This document shows positions 35,984 to 43,033 of a DNA stretch of 43,895 nt, piece after piece; the stretch's first letter is position 1; each line of letters starts with the position of its first letter. The notes beneath the pieces are model-generated. The model saw nothing but the letters and a program-made list of their open reading frames with translations, had not been told where the DNA came from and made no database searches. The DNA lies in the NCBI GenBank assembly GCA_020027215.1, contig JAHRAO010000002.1, positions 1-43,895 on the forward strand, written 5' to 3'. Both the position numbers and the translations under genes were made by a program. This DNA comes from Gammaproteobacteria bacterium. Lineage in GTDB: Bacteria > Pseudomonadota > Gammaproteobacteria > JABABF01 > JAHRAO01.

Positions 35984-37012
35984 TTAAAATAAAGATCTTT
36001 GCCCATCTAAAGAAGGAGGGATAAAATAGTCGGCACGCAAGGGGGGATATTGTCCATCCAAGCCATAACGGTGGCGAGCGAGATAAAAGCGTTGGGCAAT
36101 GACATCGGCATAGGGTCCTTCCCCGCGCATTCTATGACCATAATCAGCGCAGTAGATATCGCCTCCATGCATTTGGCGCAAAGCATTCAACACGCGTTCA
36201 GCGCGCTCTGGATAATTGGCGGTGAGCCAGCTGGGAAATAACTGACGCAGTTCCCACGGCAAGCGCAACATCATATAACCCGCTGAAATGGCTCCCCGCT
36301 GCGCCGATTGTTGCACAATATTTTCTATTTCGTGGTCGGTGAGACCGGGGATTATTGGCGCCACGAGTACCGTGGTCGGAATACCCGCTGCGCTCAATCG
36401 CTCAATAATTTTCAAGCGTCTCTGCGGAGCAGCGGCACGTGGTTCCATACGGCAATTGAGATCTACATCTAAAGTTGTAATGGAAATAGCTACCGACACC
36501 AAGTTTTTTGCCGCCATAGGTGCTAACAAATCCAAATCACGTTCAATCAAAGTGGATTTAGTAATTAGTTGCAAGGGGTGGGCACATTCAGAAAATAACT
36601 CTACCAACTGCCGCGTAATCCGCAAACGGCGCTCTACAGGTTGGTAAGCATCGGTATTAATACCCAATACAATCGGGTGCGGACGATAAGCGGGGCGAGC
36701 AAATACGGCACGCAGTGCTTTTGCAGCATTTTTCTTGGCAAAAATCTTGGTTTCAAAATCTAATCCCGGTGACAAATTCAGATAAGCATGTGACGGGCGC
36801 GCAAAACAATAAGCACAACCGTGTTCACACCCTCTATAAGGATTAATGGAATGCGTGAAAGGTATATCGGGTGACCGATTTGTGCTGATCAATTGCCCAG
36901 CGGAATCATCAAATATTTGGGTTTTTCGCCGCTCATCGCTCACGGTGGTCTCCCAACCGTCATCGTACGACTCTGTTTTTTGGTGATCGTAGCGCCCAGA
37001 GGGATTGATCAC
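35984..37012 (-). CDS. PA0069-family radical SAM protein (SplB-like)
   Basis: 342 residues from GTG 37012. The radical SAM cluster motif is Cys62-x3-Cys66-x2-Cys69 in RGCEHGCAYCFARPSHAY, followed by SPGLDFETKIFAKKNAA, GINTDAYQPVERRLRITR and MEPRAAAPQRRLK. The family, related to spore photoproduct lyase (COG1533), is common in proteobacteria; its function is unproven. The codons just upstream of GTG 37012 also look conserved (KGRGAV before INP), yet no ATG, GTG or TTG occurs there. AGAGGG at 37066-37061 is well placed for an AUC (37054) or AUA (37051) start, so the true N-terminus may be longer. Confidence 0.88.
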   Translation of the reverse strand: MINPSGRYDHQKTESYDDGWETTVSDERRKTQIFDDSAGQLISTNRSPDIPFTHSINPYRGCEHGCAYCFARPSHAYLNLSPGLDFETKIFAKKNAAKALRAVFARPAYRPHPIVLGINTDAYQPVERRLRITRQLVELFSECAHPLQLITKSTLIERDLDLLAPMAAKNLVSVAISITTLDVDLNCRMEPRAAAPQRRLKIIERLSAAGIPTTVLVAPIIPGLTDHEIENIVQQSAQRGAISAGYMMLRLPWELRQLFPSWLTANYPERAERVLNALRQMHGGDIYCADYGHRMRGEGPYADVIAQRFYLARHRYGLDGQYPPLRADYFIPPSLDGQRSLF

Positions 37013-40626: not shown

Positions 40627-41802
40627 ATGATCCAGCCGAACTTATTTGATGATGCTGCACTCAAATATAACGCCGATGCAGTCTATCACCAGCCATTTTC
40701 CTCTACCCAACAACAAGCGCTGCAGGCATTGTATGAGACGACTGCCCAACGCAACCGAAGGAATATTGGCTATCCCTGCAATCCCGTATTTGATTACTCT
40801 GCACTCTTGCCCTTTTTACATGTGTCAATGAATAATATAGGCGACCCCTATGGTGATAGCTATTATTCCGCTAATATGCACAGCATTGAGCGCGAAGTAT
40901 TACAACAATTTGCCCAACTCGTGCACGCACCAGATGACTATTGGGGTTATATCACTCATGGCGGTACCGAAAGTAATATGTATGGTTTGTATATCGCGCG
41001 CGAATTATTGCCCAACGGCATCGTCTATTATTCTGAAGCTACCCATTACAGCGTGGTCAAGATACTACATGTATTAGGTATGCGCTCTATTACGATCCGT
41101 AGTATGCCCAATGGCGAAATCGATTACGAAGACCTCCAAGAAACACTACAGTTACACCGTGATGTCCCCCCTATTTTAATGATAAATATAGGCACAACTA
41201 TGACCGGTGCCATTGATAATTTGGATAAAATTAGCGCTATGCTAAAAAGTATGGCATTTCCTTCCCACTACATTCATTGTGATGCCGCATTTCACGGCAT
41301 GATTTTGCCCTTTGTCAAAAATCCACCGCCATTCGATTTTTCTGCCAATATTGATAGCATTTCCATTAGCGGGCATAAGCTGATCGGTGCGCCCATGCCC
41401 TGTGGAGTTGTTCTCACGCACCGTCGCAATGTCAGTAGAGTTGCTCACGCGGTAGAATATGTTGGGGTGATGGATACAACCATTAGTGGTTCACGTAATG
41501 CCATAACACCACTCTTATTATGGTACGCTTGGCAACGGCATGGCATGGAGGGTTTCCGCACAATAGTCAATAAATCCATTACCGCAGCAGACGATGCCAT
41601 AAAGCAATTAACCGACTGCGGAATCCGTGCATGGCGTAATCCACATTCGCCAATCGTCGTATTTCCATCGCCTTCATCAGAGACCATTCGTAAATGGCAT
41701 CTCGCATCACAAAGTGGGCAATCGCATATTATTACCCTACCGCATGTATCAAGCGAGCTTCTCGCTGAATTTATTACCGATATCCTGAAAGATCTATCAT
41801 GA
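40627..41802 (+). CDS. hdc: PLP-dependent histidine decarboxylase-like enzyme
   Basis: 391 residues, a group II amino-acid decarboxylase. Family blocks seen are RRNIGYPCNPVFDYS, NNIGDPYGDSYYSANMHSIE, GYITHGGTESNMYGLYIARE, YSEATHYSVVKIL, MINIGTTMTGAIDNLDKI, HCDAAFHGMILPFV (PLP-pairing Asp), Lys251 in SISGHKLIGAPMPCG (Schiff base), and YVGVMDTTISGSRNA. This matches PLP-type histidine decarboxylases (histamine formation), whose relatives include serine decarboxylases, so the substrate is not certain. No siderophore or histidine-transporter genes are nearby. It overlaps the ACT-domain gene by 4 nt (ATGA). Confidence 0.88.
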   Translation: MIQPNLFDDAALKYNADAVYHQPFSSTQQQALQALYETTAQRNRRNIGYPCNPVFDYSALLPFLHVSMNNIGDPYGDSYYSANMHSIEREVLQQFAQLVHAPDDYWGYITHGGTESNMYGLYIARELLPNGIVYYSEATHYSVVKILHVLGMRSITIRSMPNGEIDYEDLQETLQLHRDVPPILMINIGTTMTGAIDNLDKISAMLKSMAFPSHYIHCDAAFHGMILPFVKNPPPFDFSANIDSISISGHKLIGAPMPCGVVLTHRRNVSRVAHAVEYVGVMDTTISGSRNAITPLLLWYAWQRHGMEGFRTIVNKSITAADDAIKQLTDCGIRAWRNPHSPIVVFPSPSSETIRKWHLASQSGQSHIITLPHVSSELLAEFITDILKDLS

Positions 41803-42209
41803 ACAAAAAGACACAATTACAACAAATCGTCGTCATCACTGAGAATAAAGCGGGGGTTATCGCCCGCATCACCGAAAGGCTTGCCGAAAATAATATCAAT
41901 ATTGAAAGTATAAACGCAGTCGGTGAAGATGGAGCGGGGGTCGTAGTGCTGATCACCGACAATTACCACGCCGCAATGGAAGCATTGCGCACTTTACCTT
42001 ATCGGGTCATTGCCGAAGAAGTGTGTCTTATCCGCATCCCCGATCAACCCGGCGCATTGGCAAAAATTGCTCATCGCTTTAAGGTTGACCGCGTCAATAT
42101 TCGTTGTATGAATATTGTCCAGAGGCAACAGAAATATACCATTGTCGCCATATCGGTCAGTGATACACTCGCTGCACGGCGTTTGCTAAAAGATGTGTTG
42201 CTGTCTTAA
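41799..42209 (+). CDS. Tandem ACT-domain protein
   Basis: 136 residues made of two ACT domains: ~8-65 (QIVVITENKAGVIARITERL, NNINIESINAVG) and ~75-136 (VCLIRIPDQPGALAKIAHRF, RVNIRCMNIVQR). ACT domains bind amino acids and regulate metabolic enzymes allosterically. No catalytic domain is attached. The ATGA overlap with the decarboxylase gene implies coupled translation, so it may sense the amino acid used by, or regulate, that enzyme; this is inference. Confidence 0.85.
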   Translation: MNKKTQLQQIVVITENKAGVIARITERLAENNINIESINAVGEDGAGVVVLITDNYHAAMEALRTLPYRVIAEEVCLIRIPDQPGALAKIAHRFKVDRVNIRCMNIVQRQQKYTIVAISVSDTLAARRLLKDVLLS

Positions 42210-42253: not shown

Positions 42254-43033
42254 ATGATTGATTGGTTGGCATTGCCGTTTTATATCAGTAGCATTGCTGT
42301 ACTCTGCTGGCGCACGAGTATCAGGCATCTCGTTTACATTTACTGCGCTATTTGCGCCGGTTTAGTTATACATTTTTCATATTACTGGCGCTGGATCACT
42401 TCTTTTGATAACTATCGTTTAGGTTTATTTGAATCTATGGTCTATGTCACGGGAATTATGCTTTTCGCTATTCTGTTAAATGATATTCGCCTCCGGCGCA
42501 GTAGCGCAATGCTTTTAATGCTGTTGTGTGCCAATACCGCGCTCTACTGCATTATTCTCCTTTGGCCACAACAATTTGCTACCACCACTGCGCTGCATGG
42601 AGATATCGCTATCCACCAAGCACTCTCCATGCTCGCTTACGCTTTAATGACTATAGTGGCTTTTATTGCGGTGATATTCTTTGCGCAATCTTACGCCTTC
42701 AAGCATCACTATACACGCGGTGTTTTGCCGTGGATGCCATCGCTGCAAACTTTAGAAAAGTTCTTTATTACCGTTTTTTGGGCGGGAATTATTGCGTTGT
42801 GCGGCGCACAAATTGCTGGGATCTGGTTAGTGCAAGATATTTTTGCCCAACACTTATCGCACAAAATATTTTTCTCGCTCTTGGCATTGGGGATATACGC
42901 CGTTTTGCTTATCGGTTATTATCGCCATCATTGGCGAGGGAATCAAATGGTACGGTGGAGTTTATGGGCATATCTGTGTTTTGTCATCTCTTATTCCGGC
43001 ACGCAATGGGTATTATCGCTGGTATCGGTATAA
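42254..43033 (+). CDS. YpjD/CcsA-like inner-membrane protein
   Basis: 259 residues with about eight hydrophobic segments; cytochrome c assembly (CcsA/HemX) family. Typical pieces are HQALSMLAYALMTIVAFIAV (conserved His), LSHKIFFSLLALGIYAVLLI (second His), RHHWRGNQMVRWSLWAYLCF and SGTQWVLSLV. The E. coli relative is YpjD. The family links to heme or cytochrome handling, but YpjD has no firm function. The gene lies 44 nt after the ACT gene and 3 nt before spoT, so it is in the same operon as spoT. Confidence 0.85.
   Translation: MIDWLALPFYISSIAVLCWRTSIRHLVYIYCAICAGLVIHFSYYWRWITSFDNYRLGLFESMVYVTGIMLFAILLNDIRLRRSSAMLLMLLCANTALYCIILLWPQQFATTTALHGDIAIHQALSMLAYALMTIVAFIAVIFFAQSYAFKHHYTRGVLPWMPSLQTLEKFFITVFWAGIIALCGAQIAGIWLVQDIFAQHLSHKIFFSLLALGIYAVLLIGYYRHHWRGNQMVRWSLWAYLCFVISYSGTQWVLSLVSV

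Follow-up and report, generated by a model that had tools for sequence, protein, structure and literature searches.

A decarboxylase gene overlapping a tandem ACT-domain gene: a widely conserved bacterial pair that is probably a sensor-controlled enzyme

Introduction

Control of amino acid enzymes by detached or fused ACT domains is familiar from the AHAS small subunit and from aspartokinase. Its use on a group II pyridoxal phosphate (PLP) decarboxylase appears to be new in the literature searched, which most subscription journals lie outside: this yielded no ACT-regulated group II PLP decarboxylase, and no paper on a decarboxylase-ACT gene pair.

Two kinds of described decarboxylase serve for comparison here. 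The bacterial PLP histidine decarboxylases are represented by the Photobacterium phosphoreum enzyme (7erv, 7eru) and by the annotated hdc products of V. echinoideorum and K. aerogenes (L137 and L139 in our numbering), and the plant enzymes by 8jg7, taken as the serine decarboxylase AtSerDC from its title and its tyrosine, and 8jik, the alanine decarboxylase CsAlaDC. In the plant enzymes a single position, Tyr111 in AtSerDC and Phe106 in CsAlaDC, sets specificity for serine or alanine; the changes Y111A, Y111L, Y111V, and Y111W abolish the serine activity of AtSerDC and Y111I leaves under 5% of it, and tyrosine occupies this position in 83.7% of 563 plant homologs (PMC11407765, accessible part). 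It is called the specificity position below.

The Locus

The window, that is the whole 43,895-nt stretch of DNA analyzed, belongs to a genome assembly of 1.53 Mb in 46 contigs (97% complete). It carries a putative group II PLP decarboxylase gene followed by a putative tandem ACT-domain gene (Table 1), and each protein has one match in the genome at E ≤ 0.001. Neither is found in the sole other searched genome of the same order. According to the original prediction, the decarboxylase stop and the ACT start share the bases ATGA; both ORFs and their overlap were confirmed. By eye, no clear Shine-Dalgarno sequence lies ahead of the ACT start (CTGAAAGATCTATCATGA); the decarboxylase start differs in this respect (GAGGTAAAAATG).

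The upstream neighbor of the pair is mfd. On the 3' side come a Cytochrom_C_asm gene and then a spoT-type gene that runs off the contig. A downstream spoT had been the reason for suggesting a shared stress role: the gene is there, but the Cytochrom_C_asm gene intervenes, and the suggestion finds no echo in the loci of relatives, where spoT was not seen as a recurrent neighbor. The window also holds a radical SAM protein gene on the strand opposite to mfd.

Table 1. Features of the decarboxylase-ACT locus (positions in the window)
Feature	Position	Strand	Basis
Radical SAM protein gene	35984-37012	-	
Putative group II PLP decarboxylase ORF, 391 aa	40627-41802	+	ORF call, Pfam/NCBIfam profile matches
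Cys51 codon, position of AtSerDC Tyr111 / CsAlaDC Phe106	40777-40779	+	Alignment; PMC11407765 (accessible part)
His140 codon, putative PLP-stacking His	41044-41046	+	His in 80/80 best relatives
Asp219 codon, putative PLP N1-binding Asp	41281-41283	+	Asp in 80/80 best relatives
Lys251 codon, putative PLP Schiff-base lysine	41377-41379	+	Lys in 80/80 best relatives
Tyr278 codon, putative catalytic-loop Tyr (AtSerDC Tyr341)	41458-41460	+	Tyr in 80/80 best relatives
ATGA, decarboxylase TGA stop / ACT ATG start, putative translational coupling	41799-41802	+	Sequence
Tandem ACT-domain ORF, 136 aa, proposed regulatory subunit	41799-42209	+	ORF call, PF19571, AlphaFold model
ACT domain 1 (approximate)	41820-42011	+	Profile match, AlphaFold model
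ACT domain 2 (approximate), with D-x-P-G-A-L-A loop	42021-42185	+	Family alignment, AlphaFold model
Cytochrom_C_asm gene	42254-43033		
spoT-type gene, cut by contig end	43037-43894		

Conservation of the Gene Pair

A scan of named genome contigs confirmed at least 567 relatives of the decarboxylase, of which the best 80 were kept. The ACT pair lies directly downstream on the same strand in 78 of these best 80, a fraction that is no unbiased rate, because they are the top matches to ACT-linked queries and linked cases are over-represented. Of the two exceptions, one (L118) lies on a contig that ends right after the decarboxylase, so that no judgement is possible, and the other (L131, Microbulbifer) has no ACT gene. 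By their record labels, the 80 span 13 phyla: Pseudomonadota, Verrucomicrobiota, Lentisphaerota, Planctomycetota, Chloroflexota, Gemmatimonadota, Latescibacterota, Omnitrophota, Armatimonadota, Acidobacteriota, Cyanobacteriota, Vulcanimicrobiota, and Bdellovibrionota; because the majority come from metagenome bins, single labels may be wrong. This neighborhood check, which had been proposed along with the prediction, places the pair well beyond close strains.

The association was also looked for in narrower samples. Among 56 genomes (that of the window and those of 55 relatives), three others (G002, G005, G010) carry close copies of both genes, adjoining, with decarboxylases 52-53% identical to the window protein. 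Among 369 Gammaproteobacteria, the decarboxylase family occurs in 14 (E ≤ 1e-60), 12 of them with an adjacent ACT pair, and the ACT pair in 15 (E ≤ 1e-10), 12 of them beside a decarboxylase. The pair is rare in a sample of 319 Pseudomonadota, since only two genomes in it exceed the cut-off of the NCBIfam model NF002748: that of the window, included in the sample, with an ACT gene, and G781 without. In 194 Verrucomicrobiota, both strong decarboxylases (564 and 596 bits) have an adjacent ACT gene and five weak ones (209-229 bits) do not; weak ACT pairs are numerous, with 108 genomes at E ≤ 1e-10, but three strong ones (151-171 bits), two of them beside a decarboxylase, stand apart by a gap in score from the rest (92 bits or less). 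Six phage records also match, two of them over 80% of the query at 43% identity.

Neither scan of the surrounding genes found a further partner. When neighbor ORFs of the 80 loci were clustered, leaving out the two genes and an artefact read antisense to the decarboxylase gene, no family occurred in more than five loci, and a Pfam scan of the nearest neighbors found none in more than two of 61 downstream or three of 56 upstream genes. As far as these scans see, decarboxylase and ACT gene are the whole conserved unit.

The window decarboxylase sits on a long branch (1.05, first tree). Its horizontal transfer from Verrucomicrobia or Chloroflexi, suggested by the first tree only (95/95, set of 33 rows), is not claimed: the window row loses its resolved position once two long rows and 16 near-duplicates are dropped, and placing it among 14 gammaproteobacterial rows survived an AU test (p 0.056).

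Overlap, Fusion, and Joint Divergence

The 4-base overlap between decarboxylase and ACT genes exceeds chance. It occurs in 40 of 71 unfused pairs, versus 22 of 161 neighboring same-strand ORF pairs that an identical rule gives in those loci (odds ratio 8.2, p 6e-11; the p value is a guide only, with mechanical ORFs as background and pairs that are not independent).

In seven of the best 80 relatives (L060, L109, L115, L119, L120, L125, and L129) decarboxylase and ACT pair form a single ORF. A fusion in G067 (L038) was not counted again, because it agrees with L060 in its decarboxylase segments. On the tree, well-supported branches require the fusion label to change at least twice: six fusions form one clade (100/96, second tree), and L060 groups with an unfused gammaproteobacterial row (99/88, first tree). 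The clade, which comprises all but L060, is a Planctomycete/cyanobacterial/Silvanigrellales one. Its ACT parts match the profile weakly, in two pieces with extra residues between, or partially, and ligand binding may have been lost there.

The pairwise distances of decarboxylases and ACT proteins are correlated (r = 0.78 over 71 pairs; permutation maximum 0.14). This speaks for the two staying together, not for contact, and shared ancestry alone could give much of it.

Decarboxylases and ACT Pairs in Other Contexts

Decarboxylase relatives without an ACT gene are L131, L140, G781/L144, G297, G319, and the histidine-decarboxylase-type rows L137-L139. L131 and L140 are sisters in the first tree and may reflect one ACT loss. 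The G781/L144 gene (2181-3453, +) is a close relative (526 bits); its specificity position reads GYPT, and the 6.5 kb taken shows no ACT gene. A second, more distant decarboxylase copy lies elsewhere in the G781 genome.

The ACT pairs could regulate something else, and travel with the decarboxylase only as old operon neighbors. Two observations lean this way. One close ACT pair (G550; L141 525-3203, -; 151 bits) forms the N-terminus of an unrelated 892-aa protein, the rest of which has no Pfam match, and its genome yields no decarboxylase match at E ≤ 1e-60. The three lowest-scoring of the 15 gammaproteobacterial ACT pairs (L040-L042), which are distant relatives, adjoin genes whose best NCBIfam match, below cut-off, is the phenylacetate-CoA ligase PaaK. 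Against them stand the repeated fusion to the decarboxylase, the lack of a third recurrent gene in the neighbor scans, and an overlap that persists across phyla, and we regard mere old neighborhood as improbable. Routine association of the ACT protein with unrelated enzymes, which would have told against the original prediction, is no more than touched on by these distant pairs and by the single fusion. With the PaaK-like genes, a second kind of enzyme recurs beside ACT pairs.

Family and Catalytic Residues of the Decarboxylase

The first ORF matches Pfam Pyridoxal_deC (E 8.8e-22) and, at 450 bits against a cut-off of 305, the NCBIfam model NF002748, "histidine decarboxylase." In alignment its K251, H140, D219, and Y278 correspond to K314, H201, D282, and Y341 of AtSerDC, from which their roles are taken (PMC11407765, accessible part), and all four are kept in every one of the best 80 relatives. 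To judge from these profiles and residues, it is a group II PLP decarboxylase with its catalytic residues intact. It departs from the commonest family residue at His111, Phe222-His223, and Gln365, as does the ACT protein at Val41, Thr53, Cys103, and Asn105, so the window copies of both may be specialized. A defense-system reading was dropped: the decarboxylase gave only weak SspA/DndA matches and the ACT protein none.

Substrate

The simplest assignment would be an ordinary histidine decarboxylase that makes histamine, with the ACT protein as its histidine sensor. The NF002748 match speaks for it, as do the P. phosphoreum histidine decarboxylase as closest solved structure by sequence, and the stretches GGTESN and SGQSH, which resemble those of such enzymes. 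The score on NF002748 does not define the substrate, however, because the plant serine decarboxylase 8jg7 also passes, at 463 bits, above the window protein. The residues also tell against it. The specificity position is Cys in 61 of the best 80 relatives, Val in 8, Thr in 5, Ala in 3, Ile in 2, and Gly in 1, whereas it is Glu in three bacterial histidine decarboxylases, the annotated L137 and L139 and the solved 7erv; and all 80 have GDP and DTT where 7erv and L137-L139 have GDW and DKT or DQT, although a role of these motifs in specificity is unproven. The specificity position alone does not mark the histidine decarboxylase group, since L138, an unannotated relative that groups with the annotated enzymes in the first tree and keeps GDW and DKT, has Val there; Glu is thus not obligatory. 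The annotated histidine decarboxylases and the plant serine decarboxylases form one group at 81/85 in the first tree and are apart in the second.

Gene context also argues against this assignment. The V. echinoideorum hdc adjoins siderophore genes, and that of K. aerogenes adjoins antiporter and histidyl-tRNA synthetase genes. Histidine decarboxylases of this type had been said to sit usually in siderophore clusters, with none seen near the window pair, and this holds for the whole assembly: the NRPS condensation domain (PF00668) was not found in its 1.53 Mb, which weakens a siderophore role for the window decarboxylase, and is present in four of 31 genomes with the pair (a hand-picked subset, also used for Psd below, of the 51 searched for PanD). 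All in all, a plain histidine decarboxylase seems quite unlikely. The likeness to histidine decarboxylases that was predicted stands as a family match but does not extend to the substrate, the family name being unable to discriminate, and the histidine label should not be trusted.

As a separate observation, NF002748 is an equivalog model, yet accepts 8jg7 well above its cut-off; other bacterial annotations based on it may misstate the substrate.

A bacterial serine decarboxylase, making ethanolamine and gated by a serine-sensing ACT pair, could be proposed from the NNxGDP(F/Y) motif, as in the plant enzyme, from a C-terminal W-Q-L-A...H-I-I-x-M-P pattern that comes near that of the plant enzyme in many relatives, and from the existence of an ACT-domain serine complex (SerB2, entry 5jlp). 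But Tyr111 is replaced in all 80 best relatives, by Cys, Val, Thr, Ala, Ile, or Gly. In AtSerDC, Ala or Val in its place abolishes activity and Ile nearly does; the mutants in the accessible part of PMC11407765 do not include Y111C, Y111T, or Y111G. Neither Tyr nor Phe, the residues of the plant serine and alanine decarboxylases, occurs at this position in any of the 80. Phosphatidylserine decarboxylase (Psd) is encoded in 20 of the 31 genomes, that of the window among them, so in those 20 ethanolamine is not needed for lipid, and a use of the product for PE lipid is weakened. Serine decarboxylation accordingly looks unlikely.

PLP-dependent PanP-type enzymes replace the aspartate decarboxylase PanD, and the window enzyme might do the same for beta-alanine; the PanP model does match, but weakly (66.7 bits; cut-off 606). 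Of 51 genomes with the pair, 34 encode PanD, and with panD in the window genome itself this reading is largely refuted and hardly credible.

From the specificity residue and the GDP/DTT comparison, then, neither histidine, serine, nor alanine can be predicted with confidence as the substrate. A small residue at the specificity position would suit a larger side chain, and similarity to aromatic amino acid decarboxylases is taken as a lead only. Tentatively, and with a little less than an even chance of being right, we propose that the ACT-linked enzymes are an unrecognized family, mislabeled as histidine decarboxylase, whose substrate is neither histidine nor serine or alanine but some other amino acid, possibly a larger hydrophobic or an aromatic one. 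They would be the first case of a dedicated ACT sensor gating a group II PLP decarboxylase, and would be used in 13 phyla or more.

The ACT Protein

The second ORF matches PF19571, "ACT domain pair" (28.3 bits, with the cut-off at 23.5), and also the AHAS ACT model. Its AlphaFold model (pLDDT 87.5, pTM 0.71) has two beta-alpha-beta-beta-alpha-beta units, and by profile and predicted fold it is a tandem ACT protein. A fold search with the model gave 2f06 (BT0572) as nearest, followed by YdjB, SerB2, and aspartokinase regulatory domains, with AHAS small subunits lower; TM-scores over the model are low, 0.38-0.49 among the matches listed. That these folds include regulators of amino acid enzymes (SerB2, aspartokinase, the AHAS small subunit) speaks for the proposed regulatory role. 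No ligand of 2f06 was found in the accessible part of PMC3828330. In the loop of the second domain, Pro84, Gly85, Leu87, and Ala88 are each kept in at least 79 of 82 full-length rows. The L060 fusion also gave an AlphaFold model (pLDDT 90.6, pTM 0.85), the decarboxylase core of which matches 8jik, 7erv, and 8jg7 at Z 44.7-46.6.

Proposed Function

That a free-standing ACT protein is dedicated to a PLP amino acid decarboxylase, as originally predicted, is well supported by the genome evidence: the pairing spans phyla, the fusion state has changed at least twice, and the neighbor scans show no further partner that recurs. We are fairly confident that the window pair is one functional unit, a decarboxylase with its own detached allosteric ACT subunit. 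In the mechanism we propose, the ACT protein would be translated right after the decarboxylase by way of the stop/start overlap; at its ACT interfaces it would most likely bind an amino acid, either the substrate or another from that pathway; and it would switch decarboxylase activity by direct contact, as the natural fusions would within one chain. Control by the substrate amino acid is plausible, and we rate a substrate-sensing gate a little above end-product inhibition, since the pair brings no further recurrent pathway gene with it.

The pair is real and widely conserved, and it probably forms a sensor-controlled decarboxylase. If so, a widespread bacterial amine-forming enzyme would be under direct amino acid control by a sensor subunit, and genomes annotated by the NCBI model may name its substrate wrongly. 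Structure and allostery could be studied in a simple form on the natural fusions, and the family would allow a clean test of the evolution of substrate choice in histidine, serine, alanine, and unassigned decarboxylases.

Comparison with Known Systems

With the bacterial PLP histidine decarboxylases the window enzyme shares the NF002748 family (7erv included), the catalytic residues, and the fold (Z 46.5 for the L060 fusion model core); the specificity residue and the GDP/DTT motifs differ. The four plasmid-collection copies have no ACT partner within 3 kb, and the annotated hdc genes L137 and L139 have siderophore or histidine genes alongside, unlike the ACT-linked enzymes. With the plant serine and alanine decarboxylases it shares the fold, the NNxGDP motif, and the catalytic Lys, His, Asp, and Tyr, but the plants have Tyr or Phe at the specificity position in place of Cys, Val, Thr, Ala, Ile, or Gly. 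The plant enzymes carry a zinc finger (PMC11407765, accessible part), and no ACT domain in the aligned stretches.

On the regulatory side, the BT0572-type ACT pair (2f06; PF19571, ACT_8) has the same tandem architecture and is the best PDB match of the window ACT protein by sequence (E 7.1e-8) and by fold (E 1.1e-10), although a distant one (28% identity, TM-score 0.48); the ACT pairs related to this type that were found here lie beside phenylacetate-CoA-ligase-like genes, not beside a decarboxylase. The ACT regulators of AHAS and aspartokinase serve enzymes unrelated to the group II PLP decarboxylases, but the AHAS ACT model and the aspartokinase and AHAS folds all match the window ACT protein.
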